Notes under the pieces: generated by a model
Seen by the model: only the letters and a program-made list of their open reading frames with translations
The model's database searches: none
What the model was told of the DNA's origin: nothing
Translations under genes and position numbers: made by a program
Source: Chitinophagaceae bacterium
Lineage (GTDB): Bacteria; Bacteroidota; Bacteroidia; Chitinophagales; Chitinophagaceae
DNA length: 64,000 nucleotides
NCBI GenBank assembly: GCA_947374225.1
Contig: CANCAY010000003.1
Span: forward strand, 107,348-171,347
Direction: 5' to 3'
Shown here: positions 10,348-64,000 of the stretch, one piece after another
Layout: each line of letters opens with the position of its first letter
Numbering within the stretch: position 1 is the stretch's first letter

Positions 10348-11228
10348 ACCGCCGTTGCAACCACGAAAAAGGAAGCTATAATTAATGCAAGGCCAATCCA
10401 TTGTTTTGGACTTAGGCGTTCTTTAAAAAACACGAATCCAATTAATACCGACAGTATCTGACTGCTAATAATTAAAATATTTATTACTACTACTGGCAAG
10501 TATTGGTAGGAGATATTAATAGCCAAGCCACCAGCAACAAGCAATACCCCTAAAATTAAATATTCTACAAGGTGCTTGGCTTGTAAATAGTTAAATAAGT
10601 CTTTTAGCATGCCATCTTTTACTACCATGGCTAAACCAAATAACATTGCAGTAGTTTCAATAACTAAACTAAAACCAAGTGGACCCCACCATGAAATAGG
10701 GTAAGTGTATAAAGCATATGAACTGCCCCAGAAAAAACTAGAAGCCAGTCCATAAATAATTCCTGTTTTTAAATGATGTCCCTTGGCTAATTCCTTGCCT
10801 TGTAAATACAATAATAATAATCCCGCTGTTGACAAAATAAACGCATACAAATAAGGTGTTTTCCAAACTTCACCAACAACAAATACTGCCGTTAAAATAG
10901 TAAATAGTTTTAGCGAAGACACGGGAACCACAACACTTACAGGCGCTTTTTGAATACCATGCAAAAAGAAAACCAATCCAAAAATATTAAAAACAGAAAG
11001 TGCTACTGATAAAATAAATTGTTTATCAAATGTCAGGTCTCTAACTATCCAATATTTAAAAAATGGCTCGTGCCTAAAACCAAAATATAAAATGGCGAAA
11101 ATAAACGTTGCAAAAACTCCTCTATAAAACATTCCAATTTGAAAAGGAATATGTACTGTTACTTTTTTCCAATAAGCATTACTGATAGCGAAACAAAAAG
11201 CACCAATTAATACAAAAATTATTCCCAT
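10344..11228 (-). CDS. EamA/DMT-superfamily transporter
   Basis: The product is 294 aa with about ten hydrophobic helices arranged as two EamA repeats, beginning MGIIFVLIGAFCFAISNAYWKK and ending LSPKQWIGLALIIASFFVVATAV. The second repeat starts near residue 150 (GIIYGLASSFFWGSSYALYT). It is an inner-membrane drug/metabolite exporter type with unknown substrate. It lies 8 bp downstream of asnS on the same strand and is probably co-transcribed with it. Confidence 0.85.
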   Translation of the reverse strand: MGIIFVLIGAFCFAISNAYWKKVTVHIPFQIGMFYRGVFATFIFAILYFGFRHEPFFKYWIVRDLTFDKQFILSVALSVFNIFGLVFFLHGIQKAPVSVVVPVSSLKLFTILTAVFVVGEVWKTPYLYAFILSTAGLLLLYLQGKELAKGHHLKTGIIYGLASSFFWGSSYALYTYPISWWGPLGFSLVIETTAMLFGLAMVVKDGMLKDLFNYLQAKHLVEYLILGVLLVAGGLAINISYQYLPVVVINILIISSQILSVLIGFVFFKERLSPKQWIGLALIIASFFVVATAV

Positions 11229-11236
11229 AAAAAATT

Positions 11237-12697
11237 TTAATATTCGCAGTTCTTCGGTGTTCTTGCAAAGGCAATAACATCTCTAATATTTGTCATGCCT
11301 GTCACAAACTGTACCATACGCTCAAAGCCTAAGCCAAAACCTGCATGGGGAACACTTCCAAAGCGTCTTGTGTCTAAATAATAACTCATTTCTTCTAATG
11401 GAATATGCATTTCATTCATTCTGGCTTCTAATTTGTCCAAACGCTCTTCTCTTTGTGATCCTCCTACAATTTCTCCAATACCTGGTGCTAATATATCCAT
11501 AGCTGCAACGGTTTCTTTTCCTGCTTCACAACCATCATTCATTCGCATATAAAAAGCTTTTATTGCAGCAGGGTATCCTGTTACAATTACTGGCTTTTTA
11601 AAATGTTGTTCTACTAAATATCTTTCATGCTCACTTTGTAAATCTATTCCCCACTTAACGTCGTAAGTGAATTTCTTTTTCTTATAATGATTGCTATTTA
11701 ATAATATGTCAATGGCTTCGGTATAGGTAATTCTTTCAAATCCATTTTCTAAAACGAATTTTAATTTTTCCACCAAACCTAATCCACTTCTTTTTTCTGT
11801 TGGCAATTGTTTTTCTTCTTCCGCTAAACGACTATCTAAAAAAGCTAAGTCGTCTTGATTATGTTTCATTACATAATCAATTAAGTGCTTAATAAAATCT
11901 TCCGCCAAATTCATATTGTCTTCTAAATCGTTAAAAGCAACTTCGGGCTCTATCATCCAAAACTCTGCTAAGTGTCTTGTGGTGTTGGAGTTCTCGGCAC
12001 GGAAGGTTGGACCAAATGTATAGATGTCTGAGAACGCCATTGCGCCTAACTCTCCTTCTAATTGACCACTCACTGTAAGGTTGGTACTCTTACCAAAAAA
12101 ATCTTGCGTAAAATCAATTTCTCCAGCTTCATTTTTTGCTGCGCCTTCTAAAGGAAGTGTAGTTACACGGAACATTTCACCAGCACCTTCTGCATCACTA
12201 CTTGTAATGATAGGGGTGTGTAAATATAAAAATCCACGGTCATTAAAAAACTGATGCACCGCAAATGCCAATGAATGACGAATGCGAAACACAGATCCAA
12301 ACGTATTGGTTCTAAAACGTAAATGTGCTTTTTCTCTTAAAAATTCAAGAGAATGTTTTTTAGGTTGTAGTGGATATTTTTCTGCATCACTATCTCCTAG
12401 TATTTCTATTTTAGTTGCTTTAACTTCTACTGTTTGTCCTTTTCCTAAACTCTCTACCACAACACCCGTTGCTTTTATAGAAGCACCAGTAGTAATACGT
12501 TTTAATATAGCCTCATTAAACTCGCCTAAGCTTGCTACAATTTGTACATTGTTATTGGTACTTCCATCGTTTAATGCGATAAACTGATTATTTCTAAAAG
12601 TACGCACCCATCCCATTACTACGACTTCAGATCCTACAGCACTCTTTGCGTCAGTACCGCTTAGCAATTGCTTTATTTTGACTCTTTGATTGAACAT
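11237..12697 (-). CDS. asnS: Asparaginyl-tRNA synthetase
   Basis: This 486-aa class IIb enzyme charges tRNA-Asn. The N-terminal OB-fold anticodon-binding domain covers about residues 15-115 ([21 protein letters not shown]). The catalytic core follows, with motif 2 as [21 protein letters not shown] shows across the residues near 240, the segment [18 protein letters not shown], and motif 3 [15 protein letters not shown] near the end. Length and order match bacterial AsnS. A TATCTTTG box 20 bp upstream supports the ATG chosen. Confidence 0.97.
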
Positions 12698-55108: not shown

Positions 55109-56137
55109 TTATTGGTTCAAAAGCAAAGCGGCATTCAAAATTGGATCTACTTTTTCTGCATCTATAGGAACAATGGTTCGGTCCTTTTCGTACCATTTAT
55201 CATAGTACTTTAATAAAATACTAAAGGCGGCACTAATTTCCTTTTCTAAAATATGATTAATGGCATTTTTTGTTTCTAAGCCACCAAGTCTTTTTTGAAT
55301 TCGATAAGTGGCTGCCATTAAATTTTCTGCACTAAATTTTCCATAACCAGCAACAATAAATGCTAATCTTGATTCAAACGGAATTTTAATAAAATAACAT
55401 TTACTAGCACGTAATAATTTAAAGAAGGGTGTTGGTAACATAACCAATCCAATTCTTTGACTTTCGTCTTCTATCCAAATGGTGGAATGTAATAAAGAGA
55501 CTGCATATAATTCGGTTGCTAAAACATTTTCAAACATTTCTTGTGAAGGTTGTTCAGCTTGACCAAGTGCTCCAAATGCAGAACCTTTATGATGCGCCAA
55601 ACCTTCCAAGTCTATTACCGGTTGCTTTTGTTTTTTAAGCTCGAGCAATATTTCTGTTTTGCCAGATCCAGTGTATCCACCCAACACTTTTAATTCATAG
55701 GGTTTTTCAAACTGTGCTAAAACCCAGTTCCTATAAGCTTTATAGCCGCCCGCTAATTGGCAAACTTGAAATCCATATAAATCTAATAACCAACAAACAG
55801 CAGCACTACGCATACCGCCTCTCCAACAGTGTACATAAATAATTGGTTTGTTTTTTTCATTATGTTTTTGAAAATCTTTTACCCAAGCTTCCACTGTTTC
55901 AATCATGTTTAGCATCTTATTTCCAAAAATTGGAAACCCTGCTTTAATGGCATCTTCTCTACTTTTTTGTTTGTAAGTAGTACCTATTAAAACGCGCTCT
56001 TCATTATTAAACAAAGGAAGTGAAAATGCATTTTTGATATGTGCATGTTCAAATTCGGCAGGACTTCTTACGTCAATTACAATACCTAAAGGTGCTGCAT
56101 TAATAAAGTCATTGATCTCGATTTTTTGAATAGCCAT
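55109..56137 (-). CDS. mnmH: tRNA 2-selenouridine synthase
   Basis: The 342-aa product has an N-terminal rhodanese domain with active-site Cys in VHCWRGGMRSAAVCWL (near 105) and a P-loop domain with VLGGYTGSGKTEILLEL near 155. It converts 2-thiouridine-34 to 2-selenouridine using selenophosphate. selD is not in the window. It overlaps the upstream glycosyltransferase gene by 1 nt. Confidence 0.94.
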   Translation of the reverse strand: MAIQKIEINDFINAAPLGIVIDVRSPAEFEHAHIKNAFSLPLFNNEERVLIGTTYKQKSREDAIKAGFPIFGNKMLNMIETVEAWVKDFQKHNEKNKPIIYVHCWRGGMRSAAVCWLLDLYGFQVCQLAGGYKAYRNWVLAQFEKPYELKVLGGYTGSGKTEILLELKKQKQPVIDLEGLAHHKGSAFGALGQAEQPSQEMFENVLATELYAVSLLHSTIWIEDESQRIGLVMLPTPFFKLLRASKCYFIKIPFESRLAFIVAGYGKFSAENLMAATYRIQKRLGGLETKNAINHILEKEISAAFSILLKYYDKWYEKDRTIVPIDAEKVDPILNAALLLNQ

Positions 56138-57237
56138 TACGACAAAGTTAACTGCTTTAATTGGCTTGCAAGCAATTCACAACTAATTTCAGAAAAAGGA
56201 GGATTGCTGTAATTAAATTGCCTTGCCATTTGTAATGCAGTAGATAAATTAAATTCATGTTGAGCAATACAAATAGCCCAGCCTTTTTCCTGCCAATATT
56301 TTCCTAGATACTCTTGTTCGGTTTGACCTGGTGTTGGAATAATTATTAATTTTTTCTCAAACGGAATTAGTTCCATCAAACTGGTATAACCACCTCGGCA
56401 AATAATGTATTCAGCATTGGCAATTTGCTTTGCTAAAGCTGCACCCGATAAATGATGATATAGCGTTCCGGTCTCGGTTGCTTTATGATACTGCTCATTT
56501 TTAGGCAAGCCAGCTACTACCACAAAGGGCTGCGCTTGTGTATTGCCCGCTTCCCATAAAAGCTGCTCTAAAATGGTTCTTTGAGGTTCTGGGCCCGATA
56601 CGATTCCTAAAAAAAGAAGGGGTACGGCGTTAATGTCAATGGTTTGGTTGCGAACAGCACTGTGTAATCTAGACAAGCATCCCATATACCAAAGGGGAAT
56701 GGTTGGTTGCGAAACCGGATTGCCTAGTTTTCCGGATAGGTTATTGGGCCCTTCCATATCAGGTACCCAACAAGCGTCAAAGCGTTTCATCCATGCATAT
56801 TGTAATTTTTGAAACCAATTACTTGCCCAACCAAAAGGCATAATCATATACAATTGATGTGTTATAAAAACACTAGGCACTTTTTTATGATAAAAACCAA
56901 CACGGTTGTCTGCAATGATTAAATCAAAATGATAACGGTCCTGCATTTTTTTAAGCCACCAATATTCATTTATAATGCTCCATAAAACCTTGGGAGCTTG
57001 TAAAAAAATATTTGCAAAAAATAGGCTTCTATTTTTAGTATATCGAACATGGTATCCACGCAGCGCTAAAAAATGAGCGTCGGGAAAAGCTTCTTTTAAT
57101 ATGACTTCATGATGTCCTTCTGTGGCAATATAAACGGTATGTCCCAACTCCTTTAATGCATGAATAATGGGAATGCATCTTGTGGCATGTCCCAATCCCC
57201 AATCCAGAGGCGATATACATATTGAAAGCGGCTTCAT
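56137..57237 (-). CDS. Glycosyltransferase-like protein (GT28/MurG-type fold)
   Basis: The 366-aa product starts MKPLSICISPLDWGLGHATRC, a GT-B N-terminal loop with G-L-G-H. The C-terminal nucleotide-binding half has AEYIICRGGYTSLMELIPFEKKLIIIPTPGQTEQEYLG (in parts). Catalytic specificity is unknown. It stands just upstream of mnmH with overlapping stop and start codons, so translation is likely coupled. Confidence 0.82.
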   Translation of the reverse strand: MKPLSICISPLDWGLGHATRCIPIIHALKELGHTVYIATEGHHEVILKEAFPDAHFLALRGYHVRYTKNRSLFFANIFLQAPKVLWSIINEYWWLKKMQDRYHFDLIIADNRVGFYHKKVPSVFITHQLYMIMPFGWASNWFQKLQYAWMKRFDACWVPDMEGPNNLSGKLGNPVSQPTIPLWYMGCLSRLHSAVRNQTIDINAVPLLFLGIVSGPEPQRTILEQLLWEAGNTQAQPFVVVAGLPKNEQYHKATETGTLYHHLSGAALAKQIANAEYIICRGGYTSLMELIPFEKKLIIIPTPGQTEQEYLGKYWQEKGWAICIAQHEFNLSTALQMARQFNYSNPPFSEISCELLASQLKQLTLS

Positions 57238-57276
57238 GAAACCTAAATTTAGTCAATTATTGCCTGTATAAAACAC

Positions 57277-57284
57277 TAAATTTG
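57277..57284 (+). promoter_or_regulatory. -7 box for the DUF5690 gene
   Basis: TAAATTTG lies 16 nt before the ATG; a TTG 14 nt upstream could be the -33 element. Confidence 0.45.
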
Positions 57285-57300
57285 TTTCAAACGAATAAAC

Positions 57301-58563
57301 ATGCCATTCTTGTCAAAAGATAAAACGATAGCACTATACGCAGCACTGGTTTCCTTTGGAACTTATGTATTTATTTTTGGTTTTAGAAAATCGTTTACGG
57401 TATGCACTTTTGATGGTTTAACATTTGGCCCCATTGCTTATAAAACAGCATTAGTGATAAGTCAAATGTTAGGTTATTTATTAGCCAAATTTTATGGTAT
57501 TCGTTTTATTTCAGGAATGCAAAAAACCAATAGATATAAAACTATATTTTTATTAACGGGGATTGCATGGGCGGCTTGGTTATTATTTGCATTGATTCCC
57601 GCACCTTATAATGTGGTCTTTTTATTTTTAAATGGTTTTCCATTGGGTATGTTATGGGGGGTTGTGTTCTCTTATGTAGAAGGTAGGCGTAGCACGGATT
57701 TCATAGGAGCAGCATTGGCAGTAAGTTTTATTTTTTCTGCGGGTTGGGTGAAGTCTGTTGGAGGATGGTTATTACTTAATTTTCATATTACAGAATTTTG
57801 GGTTCCATTTTGCACTGGCTTGGTTTTTGCAATTCCACTTATGATATGTGTATATGGATTAGAAAAAGTGCCACCCCCTTCGGCGGAGGATGAACTGCTC
57901 AGAACCACGCGTGTTCCAATGACTTCTTCTGATAGAAAAAGTTTATTAAAACAATATTTACCTGGCGTAATTGCATTTGTTGCTATTTATTTATTTGCAA
58001 CTATTTTTAGGGATATTCGAGATAATTTTTCTGCAGACATGTGGAAGGAAATGGGCTATGCGTCTAGGCCTTCAGTTTTTACAGAAACAGAAACGCCCAT
58101 CACTATTTTTATTTTAATATTAATGGGGGCCGTGGTAGCTATTAAAAATAGTTTTAAAGCACTCATGGTGGCGCATGTGTTTATTTTGTTTGGATTTATT
58201 ATTGCAGGACTGTCAACTTATTTTTTCACACATGGCAAACTAGACCCTTTTTGGTGGATGCTATTTGTGGGACTGGGTTTATACTTGGTATACATCCCCT
58301 TTAATTCTATCTTTTTTGATAGACTGATTGCCGCGTTTTCTATGAAAGGGAATGTTGGATTCTTTATTTATGTAGCAGACTCGGTGGGATATGTAGGAAG
58401 CGTAAGCGTAATGCTGGTAAAAGAAGGAATGACGTTGAAAATACAATGGACACAATTTTTCTCACAAAGCGTAATGATACTTTCTTTTGTGGGCATTTTT
58501 ATAACACTCTATTCCATTTATTATTTCTTATCAAAATCAAGAACCACTCCGTTGATGCAATAA
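57301..58563 (+). CDS. DUF5690 family MFS-like membrane protein
   Basis: The 420-aa product has about 12 hydrophobic helices. [39 protein letters not shown] (in parts), [18 protein letters not shown] and [14 protein letters not shown] are DUF5690 blocks. The family looks like a major-facilitator relative and has no known cargo. Its last 43 bp overlap the convergent msrB gene. Confidence 0.88.
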
Positions 58564-59033
58564 CGCAATCCTGTTGGAGGAGGACCGTCTTCAAAAATAT
58601 GTCCTAAATGTGCCTTGCATTTTCCGCATTGCACTTCTGTTCTGTTCATTCCATGCGTATTGTCTGGTGTATAAATTACGGCAGCCTTAGATATAGGCTC
58701 ATAAAAACTAGGCCATCCGCAACCACTATCAAACTTGGTATCACTTTTAAAAAGCGCGTTGCCACAGGCAGCACAATGGTAGGTTCCAATTTCCTTGGAC
58801 GTTTCATAGATACTGGTAAATGGACGTTCTGTACCCTTCTCTCTAGCAATGGCATATACTTCGGGCGACAAGATCTGTTTCCAAACACTATCGGGAACTA
58901 CCACTTTGTCTTGTTGGCTTTTAGAATAGTAAGGGTTGTTCTTGTTTGGCATAGTATGATTTTTGTCAGGCTTGGGGCCTTGTGCGCAAGCGAATTGGCT
59001 AATGCTAATAAGGAGAAACAGTAGTTTGTACAT
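58521..59033 (-). CDS. msrB: Peptide-methionine (R)-S-oxide reductase, exported
   Basis: The 170-aa product begins with a signal, [16 protein letters not shown], whose end could be a lipobox, so it may be a lipoprotein. Zinc-binding CxxC pairs are YHCAACG and [11 protein letters not shown]. The catalytic [11 protein letters not shown] carries the nucleophilic Cys near the end. It repairs oxidised methionine in the periplasm or outer membrane. Confidence 0.93.
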
Positions 59034-59125
59034 AATGTGAGGTCTCTTGTAAAAATACTAACAAGTATTCTAATATTTTGTTTAGATTTTTAAAAATCTC
59101 ATGTCTATAATTTAGGGTAGATGCT

Positions 59126-59133
59126 TATCTTTG
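59126..59133 (+). promoter_or_regulatory. Bacteroidota -7 box for adk
   Basis: TATCTTTG lies 21 nt before ATG 59155 and overlaps an in-frame upstream TTG (59131-59133), which supports the shorter start. Confidence 0.45.
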
Positions 59134-59154
59134 AATGCACTCCAAATCTATACT

Positions 59155-59730
59155 ATGTTCAATTTAATCTTATTTGGTCCTCCAGGTAGCGGAAAAGGTA
59201 CTCAAAGTGAAAACATTATTGCTGCTTATGGCTTGCAACACTTGTCTACCGGGAATCTTTTAAGAGAAGAAATTGGAAATTCGACACCATTAGGAATAGA
59301 AGCAAAGCGTTTAATGGATCAAGGACAATTAGTGCCAGACGAAGTAGTGATTGGTATGGTGCGTAATTTTATGGAAGCTCGCCCGGCAGCGAAAGGATTT
59401 TTATTTGACGGCTTTCCTAGAACCACAGCACAATGTGTAGCCTTGGATGCATTATTAATAGAGAACGGAAACGAAATCAATATAGTTTTGGCATTAGAAG
59501 TAAGCGAAACGGAATTGGTTAAAAGATTATTGGGTCGCGGCCTAACTTCAGGCAGAAGCGATGATACCAATGAGACCATTATTCGTGCTAGAATTAAAGA
59601 GTATCACGATAAAACTACCGCTGTTGCAACTTATTACGATCAGTTTAATAAAGTAGTACATGTTAAAGGCGAAGGAACGGTAGAAACCATCTATGCCGAT
59701 TTAAAGCAAGAGATAGACCACAGAATTTAA
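59155..59730 (+). CDS. adk: Adenylate kinase
   Basis: The product is 191 aa from ATG 59155 (MFNLILFGPPGSGKGTQSENI). Motifs are the P-loop GPPGSGKGTQ, STGNLLREEI, FLFDGFPRTTAQC and the short LID RLLGRGLTSGRSDDTNE with no zinc cysteines. The short LID form is normal in this phylum. It balances adenine nucleotides. Confidence 0.97.
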   Translation: MFNLILFGPPGSGKGTQSENIIAAYGLQHLSTGNLLREEIGNSTPLGIEAKRLMDQGQLVPDEVVIGMVRNFMEARPAAKGFLFDGFPRTTAQCVALDALLIENGNEINIVLALEVSETELVKRLLGRGLTSGRSDDTNETIIRARIKEYHDKTTAVATYYDQFNKVVHVKGEGTVETIYADLKQEIDHRI

Positions 59731-59960
59731 AAGTCCATTAGCAAAGATTCATTCAAATTGGTTCTAGTATAATGTATAGTCAACGAAAAACATATTTATA
59801 ATATTTTACATAGATAATAACCTATATATAAATAAAATAATATATATTTGTTCTGATAAACAGTAATTTATTGAGCCAGTTTGAGTAAACTATTCCCTCT
59901 AATTTTTGTCAAATAAGTATTCGGCTTTTACTGTAATAATTTTTTCAGTTTTGCTTGTAT
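59731..59960. other. AT-rich intergenic region before the PgsA-PgpA fusion
   Basis: The 230 bp between adk and the fusion gene hold no gene that I see. A TATATTTG box at 59843-59850 could be a -7 element for the downstream pair, leaving a leader of about 110 nt. No clear hairpin is visible. Confidence 0.35.
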
Positions 59961-60944
59961 ATGAATAGACTCATAATAAATAGTATTACGTTTTCCAGGC
60001 TCTTGTTATTGCCACTCCTCTATTTGTACCCTACGCCATTTTTTCTTTTTATAGCTGCAAGCTGGTGTGGCCTATCTGATTTTTTAGATGGCTATTTAGC
60101 AAAACGTTTAAAAAGCAATAGCACTTTTGGTATTAAGCTGGATCAAATAGCAGACAAGATTGTCGCGCTTTATTTTTTTATCGAATTATTTACAAGAGGT
60201 CAAATAGCAATTTGGTTTATAATATTATTTTTTCTACGCGAGGGGCTTATTTTAATTGGAAGAAGTATTGGTTTAAATATATCCGCTTCAAATATCTGGG
60301 GAAAAGTAAAAACGGTATTGGTTTATGTTTTAATTGCAGCATTATACGGAAATAATTACTTTCATTTTTTTACAATGATAGAAGCAAAATGGATAAGTAT
60401 ACTATTTCAAATTGGAATACTAGCAATCAGTTTTTATTCGTATTATATTTCTATACTAGCAATAATTAGAACAAAAATATATCAAGCGTTTTCAAAAGTA
60501 TTGGGCTCTAGTTTTTACACTGCTTATATTTTTAAATGGATGCCAGGAACTTCTAGTTCCCTGTTTGTATTTCCCTTGTTTTTTTATTTTCAGCATATTG
60601 AATATGGAATTAAAATAGCCATTACTGGATTTTTAATACTTATCCATTATTTAATCTATCCGGTTTTTAGCCAACAGGTACAGAAAGAAGATCCAGGTGA
60701 ATATACATTGGACGAGACAATTGCAATTGCATTTTGTTGGTTTATGCCATACCATAGTGTACAAATTTGGCTTCTATGTTTTATACTATTTCGTTTTTTT
60801 GATATTGTGAAGCCCTTTGGTATTAAGGCTTTCGAGAAAACCCCTAATTTTGGAAAAGCCACACGAGTATTAGGAGACGACCTTATTGCTATTTTTTATA
60901 CCATAATAATGATCTATGCCATTGAACTTTTTGTCGCAATCTAA
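59961..60944 (+). CDS. PgsA-PgpA fusion: phosphatidylglycerophosphate synthase and phosphatase in one protein
   Basis: The product is 327 aa from ATG 59961. Residues 1-170 are a CDP-alcohol phosphatidyltransferase with the metal motif D40-x2-D43-G44-x2-A-K48-x8-G57-x3-D61-x3-D65; the usual Arg of A-R is Lys, followed by Arg. Residues 181-327 match phosphatidylglycerophosphatase A: FKWMPGTSSSLFVFPLFF (like PGTxGSL in PgpA), DPGEYTLDETIAI, FILFRFFDIVKPFGIKAF and VLGDDLIAIFYT. Both sets of catalytic acids are kept. It would turn CDP-diacylglycerol and glycerol-3-phosphate into phosphatidylglycerol. The stop overlaps the next gene by 29 nt. Confidence 0.88.
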   Translation: MNRLIINSITFSRLLLLPLLYLYPTPFFLFIAASWCGLSDFLDGYLAKRLKSNSTFGIKLDQIADKIVALYFFIELFTRGQIAIWFIILFFLREGLILIGRSIGLNISASNIWGKVKTVLVYVLIAALYGNNYFHFFTMIEAKWISILFQIGILAISFYSYYISILAIIRTKIYQAFSKVLGSSFYTAYIFKWMPGTSSSLFVFPLFFYFQHIEYGIKIAITGFLILIHYLIYPVFSQQVQKEDPGEYTLDETIAIAFCWFMPYHSVQIWLLCFILFRFFDIVKPFGIKAFEKTPNFGKATRVLGDDLIAIFYTIIMIYAIELFVAI

Positions 60945-62313
60945 GCAATATATAAAAGGATTAATTCCTATTTTAATAATCAATGCGTTTGGATTGGTGG
61001 GTTTATATTTATTTATGCCAAGGCCATTATTTTATTTAGAATATTTATTGGTTTTATTGGCGCTGATCGTATTTAAAAAATATTGGCCATCCTTTGTTTT
61101 ATTTATACTGATATTCGTTTTTGATTTATTCAGTATATTTTCTAGTTTGTTTTTATTTCAACTAGACGAGTTTTTCTCTAGTTTGTCTTTTATTAAATTT
61201 TATCATTTTTCATTTCAGCAAATTCTTATCGGGGTGGTGTTTTTTTCCTATTTGTTTTTGATAGGATATGTATTAAAGTGGAGTCATAAAATAGTTCAAC
61301 AGAATAAAAAGACATTTATTAAAGTATTAGTGATATTCTATTTTATAATGGGAAGCTTGGATATGTTAAGCGGCTCTAATAAGTTAACGGAAGGCTTTAT
61401 AAAACAGGACTTTTCAAAAAAGAATATTGCAGCGTCTTTAATGAATGATTATTTTAAAACCTTTTCGGATCTAGGCAACAGCAAAGTGGAGACATTGAAA
61501 GACAGTTCTATGGGTTTTAAAGCTTTCTTAAAAGACACAACTGGAAATCAATTGTTAATTGTGGTGGAGTCTTGGGGAGAATTAAAAGACGCGAAATTGC
61601 AACAAGGTTTGGCGTCCTGGATTGCTAAGAAATTTGAAGTCAAGGGATATCGTGTGAGTACAGGTGATTCCAAATATTATGGTTCTACCACCGCCTCCGG
61701 CTTGAGAGAAATGACCAATACCAAGGGAGAGTATAGTTACTATTTAAATCATAAGTCGGCAGTTACACCGTTTAAATCCATTTTTGATGTAAAACACAAC
61801 CAGGGCTATGAAACCTTTGGCTTTCATCCATTTACAGGGCGCATGTTTTCAAGATCTGTATGGTGGAAAAATCTAGGCATTCAAAATTTATATTTTAGGG
61901 ACCAATATTTATTTGAAAACATTTCAAAAGTAAATGAAGTTGCAGGGGAAGCGCATTTCCCGTCTGTTAAAGACGAAAAGTTTTTTGATTATCTATTAGA
62001 CAAAACCAAGACTACGCCCAAGAAGTTTGTTTACTTTTTAACAGTTAATTCGCATTTACCTTATAATACAATTGGCAAAGACAATAGCCCAACAGCGCAA
62101 TTTGATATTTCAAAAATGGCTATTTCAGACCATGCAAAGTACCAACTAATTCATATTAAAAATCTGTTGGAATACTTCTCACAAAAAATTGAATCCAAGG
62201 ATTGGAATAAAATATTAATAGTAGGAGACCATATACCTCCATTTCCAACCCTGCAGGATCGAGGCTTTTATGTAGACGGAAAAGTTCCTTATCTATTGAT
62301 CACCAAGAATTAG
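60916..62313 (+). CDS. LtaS-like sulfatase-superfamily membrane enzyme, possibly a phosphoglycerol transferase
   Basis: The 465-aa product has about five N-terminal membrane helices (residues 12-150) and an extracytoplasmic alkaline phosphatase/sulfatase-like domain. Metal and nucleophile positions resembling LtaS/OpgB are E218 in LLIVVESWGEL, T258 or T259 in YYGSTTASGLRE, FLTVNSHLPYN near 375-384 and VGDHIPPF. The likely reaction is transfer of a phosphoglycerol or similar head group, or its hydrolysis. It overlaps the PgsA-PgpA gene by 29 nt, so translation is coupled and phosphatidylglycerol is a natural candidate donor. Confidence 0.78.
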   Translation: MPLNFLSQSKQYIKGLIPILIINAFGLVGLYLFMPRPLFYLEYLLVLLALIVFKKYWPSFVLFILIFVFDLFSIFSSLFLFQLDEFFSSLSFIKFYHFSFQQILIGVVFFSYLFLIGYVLKWSHKIVQQNKKTFIKVLVIFYFIMGSLDMLSGSNKLTEGFIKQDFSKKNIAASLMNDYFKTFSDLGNSKVETLKDSSMGFKAFLKDTTGNQLLIVVESWGELKDAKLQQGLASWIAKKFEVKGYRVSTGDSKYYGSTTASGLREMTNTKGEYSYYLNHKSAVTPFKSIFDVKHNQGYETFGFHPFTGRMFSRSVWWKNLGIQNLYFRDQYLFENISKVNEVAGEAHFPSVKDEKFFDYLLDKTKTTPKKFVYFLTVNSHLPYNTIGKDNSPTAQFDISKMAISDHAKYQLIHIKNLLEYFSQKIESKDWNKILIVGDHIPPFPTLQDRGFYVDGKVPYLLITKN

Positions 62314-63065
62314 ATATTTAATCCACCACAAGCGCTAATTACTTGACCAGTAATATAACTACTCAAGTCGCTTGCTAAGAACAAAGTGGTGTTTGCAATT
62401 TCTTCTGCCTTGCCAAAACGCCCTAAAGGAATTTTGTCTAAGAATGCTTTGCCGGCCTCCCCTTCGTTTAAATAGTGAGTCATATCGGTTTCTACGAATC
62501 CTGGTGCAATGGCGTTACATCTAATATTACGGCTACCAATTTCCAAAGCAATTGATTTTGTAAAACCAATAATACCCGCTTTGCTTGCAGCATAACTACT
62601 TTGACCCGCATTGCCACGAATGCCAATAATAGAACTCATATTAATGATACTGCCAGCTCTTGCTTTCATCATAGGGCGAATCACTTGCTTAGTCATGTTA
62701 AAAACACTCTTAAGATTCGTGTCCATTACCACATCCCATTGTTCAGGGGTCATGCGCAATAATAAATTGTCTTTAGAAATACCAGCATTGTTAACGCAAA
62801 TATCAATAGCACCAAATTCTTCCATCACATTATTTACGAAAAGTTCACAAGCGGTATAGTCCGCTGCATTTGCTTTATAAGCCTTTGCTCTAACACCTAA
62901 TTTTTCAATTTCAGCCACCAAGCTATCTGCTTTTTCAGCACTGCTATCACTTACATAAGTGAAGGCAATATGACTTCCTTGTTCTGCTAATTTTAATGCA
63001 ATAGCTGCGCCAATTCCTCTTGCCGCGCCAGTTACTATAGATACTTTACCTGCTAATAATTTCAT
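62310..63065 (-). CDS. fabG: 3-oxoacyl-ACP reductase
   Basis: The 251-aa short-chain dehydrogenase has the NADP-binding VTGAARGIGAAIAL, NNAGISKDNLLLRM, the catalytic Ser (INMSSIIG), Tyr and Lys (SSYAASKAGIIGFTKS), and IAPGFVETDM. The length and RMTPEQWDVVMDTNLKSVFN block fit FabG of fatty acid synthesis. It overlaps the LtaS-like stop by 4 bp on the opposite strand. Confidence 0.9.
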   Translation of the reverse strand: MKLLAGKVSIVTGAARGIGAAIALKLAEQGSHIAFTYVSDSSAEKADSLVAEIEKLGVRAKAYKANAADYTACELFVNNVMEEFGAIDICVNNAGISKDNLLLRMTPEQWDVVMDTNLKSVFNMTKQVIRPMMKARAGSIINMSSIIGIRGNAGQSSYAASKAGIIGFTKSIALEIGSRNIRCNAIAPGFVETDMTHYLNEGEAGKAFLDKIPLGRFGKAEEIANTTLFLASDLSSYITGQVISACGGLNI

Positions 63066-63120
63066 TACTTTCTATTTTTAATAAACCAATAAGTATGCAT
63101 TAACACAATGCTAATATTTA

Positions 63121-63150
63121 CAAATATAACAGGATTATTTCTGTTGTAAA
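63121..63150 (-). promoter_or_regulatory. Promoter of fabG
   Basis: TTTAC, an 18-nt spacer and TATATTTG on the minus strand resemble the -33/-7 pair, about 56 nt before the fabG start. It lies within the 3' end of the GH3 gene. Confidence 0.45.
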
Positions 63151-64000
63151 TGAATTGCTTTTAGTTCTTCTATATAAATTCTTTCATTGGAAAGTCTAGG
63201 CACTTTGTGTTGCCCTCCCAATTTACCTTTTTGCTTAAGCCATTCATGAAAACAGCCTTTTTTAACGGCTGTCACTTTGGGCAAACTTAGTGCAATATTT
63301 TTATGACGCTTTGCTTCATAATCACTATTTAAAGCTTGTAGGTTTTTATCTAATTCAACCGTGAAAGCATCCATATTAATTGGGTTTTCTTCAAACTCAA
63401 TTAACCATTCATGGGCCCCTGAATTATTATCAGACATATAGATAGGTGCAGCGGTATATTCTTTTAGTATTAAGCCAAATGTAGCACAGGCTTGGCTTAT
63501 GGCGTTGTCGCTATTGTCTGCAATTACTTCTTCTCCAAAAGCGTTCATGAATTGTTTAAGGCGTCCACTTACTTTTATTTTAAAAGGGAACTTGTTTACA
63601 AATTGAATAGTATCCCCAACCAGGTATCTCCATAAGCCACCATTGGTACTAATAACAATTGCATAGTTTTTACCAATATCTACTTTATCTAATCCAATAG
63701 TTATTGGTGATTCTTTTCCATATTCTTCCACCGGCATGAATTCATAAAAAATGCCATGTTGTAATAATAATAACATCCCTTCTTCCTCTAAATTATTTTG
63801 TGCTGCAAAAAAACCTTCACTAGCATTATATATTTCTAGGTATTTACAACCAGGGCCAATAATTTTTTCGAATTGTGCTTTATAAGGTGTGAAAGAAACG
63901 CCGCCATGAATATATAATTCAAAATCGGGCCATACTTCTTTAATGGTTTGCTTTCCTGTAATTTCTAGAATACGATTTAATAAAACTAGGGTCCAGGTAG
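63135..64000 (-). CDS. GH3 auxin-responsive-promoter family protein, copy 2, N-terminus cut by window edge
   Basis: The frame is open through the window end, giving 287 C-terminal residues. It reads WPDFELYIHGGVSFTP, EGFFAAQNNLEEEGMLLLL, YAIVISTNGGLWRYLVGDTIQF, VSGRLKQFMNAFGEEVI and KGKLGGQHKVPRLSN, matching copy 1 at 38879 block for block. The ATG at 63776 is an internal Met, not the start. Function is unknown, as for the other copy. Confidence 0.9.
   Translation of the reverse strand, partial: TWTLVLLNRILEITGKQTIKEVWPDFELYIHGGVSFTPYKAQFEKIIGPGCKYLEIYNASEGFFAAQNNLEEEGMLLLLQHGIFYEFMPVEEYGKESPITIGLDKVDIGKNYAIVISTNGGLWRYLVGDTIQFVNKFPFKIKVSGRLKQFMNAFGEEVIADNSDNAISQACATFGLILKEYTAAPIYMSDNNSGAHEWLIEFEENPINMDAFTVELDKNLQALNSDYEAKRHKNIALSLPKVTAVKKGCFHEWLKQKGKLGGQHKVPRLSNERIYIEELKAIHLQQK

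Follow-up and report, generated by a model that had tools for sequence, protein, structure and literature searches.

A PgsA-PgpA fusion gene and an overlapping phosphoglycerol transferase-like gene in a Chitinophagaceae bacterium

The fused gene and the gene that overlaps it

Within a 64,000-nucleotide stretch of contig CANCAY010000003.1 (the window; positions 107,348 to 171,347 of the forward strand) from a Chitinophagaceae bacterium, assembly GCA_947374225.1, lies a single unbroken open frame with an ATG start, encoding a protein whose N-terminal half is of the PgsA type and whose C-terminal half is of the PgpA type (Table 1), two domains more often met in proteins of their own. The domain PF01066 (CDP-OH_P_transf) matches residues 7-142 at 75.5 bits against a Pfam cut-off of 22, accompanied by the metal-binding Asp/Gly motif (D40..D43-G44..A47-K48...G57...D61...D65), and PF04608 (PgpA) matches residues 182-321 at 86.9 bits against a cut-off of 28, accompanied by the conserved blocks of that family. 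A first-pass annotation, made from the sequence alone, had proposed that PgsA and PgpA are joined in one polypeptide and had named the CDP-alcohol metal motif and the blocks PGT, DE, FRFFDIVKP and GDD; the Pfam matches, the single frame and a structure comparison uphold this proposal, every named motif is present, and the PgpA match looked for after residue 180 was found there.

The N-terminal half is modelled with the fold of solved PgsA, and the last of its predicted helices would form a continuous helix, residues 139-182, reaching into the PgpA-type half. With Staphylococcus aureus PgsA (7drj/7drk) it shares this fold, the metal aspartates and an Arg/Arg/Lys/Lys set, while differing in having PgpA attached, in carrying Lys where the A-R motif has Arg and in scoring below the NCBIfam equivalog cut-off. 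Arg and Lys residues in the S. aureus structure reportedly bind the glycerol-3-phosphate part. A scan for promoters and terminators was uninformative (18 and 3 seen, as compared to 14.6 and 2.2 in shuffled sequence).

A search of 5.8 billion proteins, from which the best 120 of 146 matches were examined, yielded 33 proteins (query included) with both Pfam domains. Among the matches listed, 13 others are exactly 327 residues long, at 70-76% identity and from several sources; a TTG two codons upstream of the ATG is a possible alternative start. Across an alignment of 24 of the 33, residues D40, D43, G44, G57, D61 and D65 of the N-terminal half and G196, T197, D251, E252, R278, D281, K284, P285, D306 and D307 of the C-terminal half are invariant, and the basic residues are kept in 24 of 24; the Pro of PGT is replaced by Ser in one fusion, P0032. 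An internal start yielding a free PgpA is unlikely, since seven of the 24 have Ala or Phe in place of M194, the Met just before PGT. An error of sequencing or assembly could in principle have merged two genes, since 13 of 21 adjacent pgsA-pgpA pairs elsewhere (described below) share a reading frame interrupted by just one stop codon, but the exact-length homologues and more distant fusions, such as one of 37% identity in a relative (G028), exclude a local frameshift, the event by which the fusion claim might have failed, and leave such an artefact a negligible probability.

The A-R position, usually Arg in the CDP-alcohol phosphatidyltransferase motif, is Lys48 in the window fusion, and the first-pass annotation had accordingly questioned the activity of this half. 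The substitution is real, but the concern it raised is reduced, as Lys occupies this position in 15 of the 33 fused proteins and Arg in the other 18, which include P0011, a member of the closest group. Although the Lys, the presence of PAP2 phosphatases and the occurrence in two relatives (G017 and G259) of a PgsA half alone could all be accommodated by a gene in which one half is inactive and which acts as a single enzyme, the invariance of the metal, basic and PgpA-block residues in all 24 aligned fusions, together with the frequency of Lys, makes this highly improbable.

The next gene, which the first-pass annotation did not see, overlaps the fusion by 29 bp in a different frame. Its product has the catalytic fold of LtaS and GacH with the invariant Glu, Thr, His and Asp-His residues, although identity to LtaS, LtaP and GacH is only 13-18% in structural alignment and, unlike those genes, this one overlaps a gene of lipid synthesis. 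By analogy with LtaS, we take E218 and D438-H439 to be metal ligands and T258 the nucleophile. One homologue of the partner, the 601-residue P0145, combines glycosyltransferase family 2 domains with a sulfatase-fold domain.

Table 1. Features of the fusion gene and its overlapping partner, in window coordinates
Feature	Position	Strand	Basis
pgsA-pgpA fusion gene, 327 aa	59961..60944	+	open frame, Pfam, homologue search
PgsA-type half, residues 4-168	59970..60464	+	six predicted helices
CDP-alcohol metal motif, residues 40-65, Lys48 at usual Arg place	60078..60155	+	translation and fusion alignment
PgpA-type half, residues 182-325	60504..60935	+	
PgpA block PGT, residues 195-197	60543..60551	+	translation and alignment
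PgpA block D251-E252	60711..60716	+	translation and alignment
PgpA block FRFFDIVKP, residues 277-285	60789..60815	+	translation and alignment
PgpA block D306-D307	60876..60881	+	translation and alignment
29-bp overlap of fusion and partner; first ATG of partner frame taken as start	60916..60944	+	frame list
Partner gene, 465 aa, membrane-anchored, alkaline-phosphatase superfamily, predicted LtaS/LtaP/GacH-type phosphoglycerol transferase	60916..62313	+	
Partner invariant E218, predicted metal ligand	61567..61569	+	alignment; role by analogy with LtaS
Partner invariant T258, predicted nucleophile	61687..61689	+	alignment; role by analogy with LtaS
Partner invariant D438-H439, predicted metal ligands	62227..62232	+	alignment; role by analogy with LtaS

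Distribution and history of the fusion

The whole fusion is present in two of 60 genomes, the window's own (G000) and G028. In a set of 48 genomes of the genus, many of them incomplete (37 from one sample and 11 from an order-level sample at 1e-12), a PgsA-type domain was detected in four, fused in G000 and G028 and alone in G017 and G259, and thus is not encoded by a core membrane gene there. In all four carriers the PgsA-type gene is overlapped by the partner gene, across three different neighbourhoods. A second subtype of transferase-like gene (L055:2180-3538 and L225:1309-2685) accompanies the fusion in G028 and is also found in G293, where no PgsA-type gene was detected; this subtype may use another donor. 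In G019 a second PF01066 match was left out of the count, its kinship being remote (n-profile E 3.7e-6, 16.3 bits).

In the whole order sample, 100 of 396 genomes match either half at 1e-12, with a single frame over both halves, among the matches listed, only in the window's own genome; two apparent long matches, in G068 and G081, each proved to be two genes. Both domains occur in one frame in nine more genomes of a phylum sample (395 genomes, 1e-20; L200, L202, L203, L205-L208, L210 and L212), and also in an Omnitrophota record and a Spirochaetes record (L060, L083). One of the nine, G449, has a separate second PgsA-type frame (10857-11372) about 2.4 kb from its fusion (L203:7301-8464). No plasmid carriage was seen, as judged by tblastn against 72,556 plasmid records at 1e-10.

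The N-half tree was built from 82 of 123 rows, chosen by the author: 33 fused rows, which differ from the 33 two-domain proteins of the homologue search, and 49 single ones. The rows set aside comprised 12 near-duplicates of window-type fusions and P0033, which is truncated, along with eight singles that were long-branched or remote and those remote singles that follow P0040. Twenty window-type fusions and the PgsA-only genes of G017 and G259 form a clade (support 100/98), whose sister is the separate pgsA of G315, a member of the same family (97/91, long branch). A quick C-half tree, for which 92 of 144 rows were kept, likewise groups the 20 window-type halves (98), the sister again coming from G315, here its pgpA (91, on a long branch). 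G315 itself carries the two as separate genes side by side (L172). Probably, then, the fusion arose from an adjacent pgsA-pgpA pair such as that of G315. The approximately unbiased test rejects a common origin for the 33 fused tree rows as a whole (p 8.35e-7). The two PgsA-only genes fall inside the fused clade, as expected had they lost a C-terminal half, but the test also tolerates a tree in which the 20 fused rows are constrained to form one group (p 0.213), so that such a loss is no more than possible.

Recurrence of the fusion may be explained by the arrangement of such pairs. With eight far-apart loci, one reverse-order pair and L194-L196 left out, 21 adjacent same-strand pgsA-pgpA pairs were examined; in 13 of them (L059, L061-L064, L084, L169, L170, L199, L201, L204, L209 and L211) the two genes share a frame and only one stop codon parts them. 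The reverse order, pgpA then pgsA, is seen in a Saprospiraceae record (L073:1810-2883).

A proposed route to phosphatidylglycerol and its alternatives

A search for separate pgsA and pgpA genes, as advised in the first-pass annotation, found the fusion to be the only PgsA-type and the only PgpA candidate in the assembly (2.46 Mb, 83 contigs, 92% complete): PF04608 matches the fusion alone, and PF01066 matches the fusion and a protein of 256 residues whose nearest model is pssA (94 bits, cut-off 107). The fusion itself, its kept catalytic residues, this sole candidacy and the overlapping neighbour are all features of the DNA; on their basis the reading that we favour, with moderate confidence, is that the 327-residue protein makes phosphatidylglycerol in two steps and likely feeds the LtaS/GacH-like transferase, whose overlapping gene points to the likeliest purpose of the fusion. 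At the inner membrane face the N-terminal half would make phosphatidylglycerol phosphate from CDP-diacylglycerol and glycerol-3-phosphate, and the C-terminal half, held by the continuous helix, would remove the phosphate. Phosphatidylglycerol would then cross to the outer face, where the partner might split off phosphoglycerol and move it onto a surface acceptor, by analogy with GacH a glycan. GacH is reported to transfer glycerol phosphate from phosphatidylglycerol to a glycan (PMC12282279), and SccH of Streptococcus mutans to carry out a comparable transfer (PMC11754754). A likeness also exists to the Archaeoglobus IPCT-DIPPS protein (4mnd), another bifunctional membrane protein with the CDP-alcohol phosphatidyltransferase fold; the second domain of that protein supplies the activated substrate, whereas that of the fusion would remove phosphate from the product.

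Several observations weigh against this reading. Seven NCBIfam models match the fusion protein, and even the best of them, TIGR00560 (pgsA), scores 64.1 bits where the equivalog cut-off is 109.1; the PgpA equivalog PRK11068 scores 47.7 bits where 226 is needed. The model for ClsA, a cardiolipin synthase, matches all 24 aligned fusions, the window fusion more weakly, which might suggest that the N-terminal half is a CDP-alcohol-type cardiolipin synthase and not PgsA. At 41.7 bits this match is lower than that of pgsA and far below its own cut-off of 240, and a fused phosphatidylglycerol phosphate phosphatase would make little sense for the cardiolipin step, so that the chance of this is very remote. 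The genome also encodes three PAP2 proteins above cut-off, which might also perform the second step.

Other difficulties concern the destination of the lipid. Lgt uses phosphatidylglycerol in textbook bacteria and was found in this genome, in 57 of 60 genomes overall (own included) and in 35 of 37 of the genus, yet a PgsA-type domain was detected in no more than three of the 37; phosphatidylglycerol may therefore have other sources or uses in the genus. Moreover, G293 (estimated 100% complete) has two full-length partner-type genes and no PgsA-type match at 1e-12, its sole PF01066 protein being a 258-residue frame that is PssA-like by length only, and the nine other-lineage fusions have no partner within the 4-15 kb stretches examined (4 kb for one, 8 kb for another). 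The donor of the partner, taken as phosphatidylglycerol from the pairing of the genes, could thus be something else. These same observations could be read to mean that phosphatidylglycerol is made for general membrane use, for Lgt or for cardiolipin, the overlap with the transferase gene being operon packing. We consider this unlikely, because a gene detected in four of 48 genomes is hardly core, even though many of those genomes are incomplete, and because the overlap persists in four of four carriers through three different neighbourhoods.

A further alternative, the chief one for the C-terminal half but one to which we give little credence, is that the N-terminal half makes phosphatidylinositol phosphate and the C-terminal half dephosphorylates it, as in Bacteroides. 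There, BT_1525, a PgpA relative, is reported to be most probably a phosphatidylinositol phosphate phosphatase clustered with the synthase gene (PMC9246714), and the BT_1523/BT_1525 cluster resembles the fusion in that a CDP-alcohol transferase and a PgpA relative act one after the other on the same lipid. In five relatives of the genus a PgpA of this kind lies some 3.5 kb away from another PF01066 gene, and in one of them (L057) an inositol-phosphate synthase gene adjoins. The Bacteroides genes, however, are separate and act on an inositol lipid, whereas the N-terminal half of the fusion is PgsA-like in kinship, and a scan confined to seven proteins encoded around it (56137-63776) showed no inositol-phosphate synthase, all seven belonging to other families. 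The inositol-type locus of G017 (L057:6011-11486), with its inositol-phosphate synthase, stand-alone PgpA and second CDP-alcohol transferase, resembles the Bacteroides inositol-lipid cluster and is distinct from the PgsA-type gene of that genome, which speaks against the inositol reading.

Significance

In the sources searched (titles and abstract openings, with subscription papers mostly outside the search) no description of such a fusion was found, in keeping with the first-pass statement that no characterised example was known; the fusion is nevertheless not unique, as it recurs in other lineages, and two homologues, P0003 and P0008, are named in the source database with both functions, indicating that automated annotation already recognises the domain pair. 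What emerges are known domains in a recurrent fusion that was not found described, together with an overlapping gene that hints at what the fusion is for. If active, the protein would be a single-chain, two-step phosphatidylglycerol synthase in which the intermediate could stay on the same chain, and would offer a one-gene means to give phosphatidylglycerol to a cell or remove it.

More tentatively, the two genes may constitute a cassette with its own lipid supply, in which the fused enzyme makes phosphatidylglycerol solely as phosphoglycerol donor for the partner; G293 and the other-lineage fusions without a nearby partner count against so strict a coupling. Were this true, a universal membrane lipid would have become a private, movable precursor. 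The patchy presence of the fusion in a genus whose examined genomes mostly show no pgsA provides a testable case for the role of phosphatidylglycerol, and for a possible decoration of the cell surface with glycerol phosphate.
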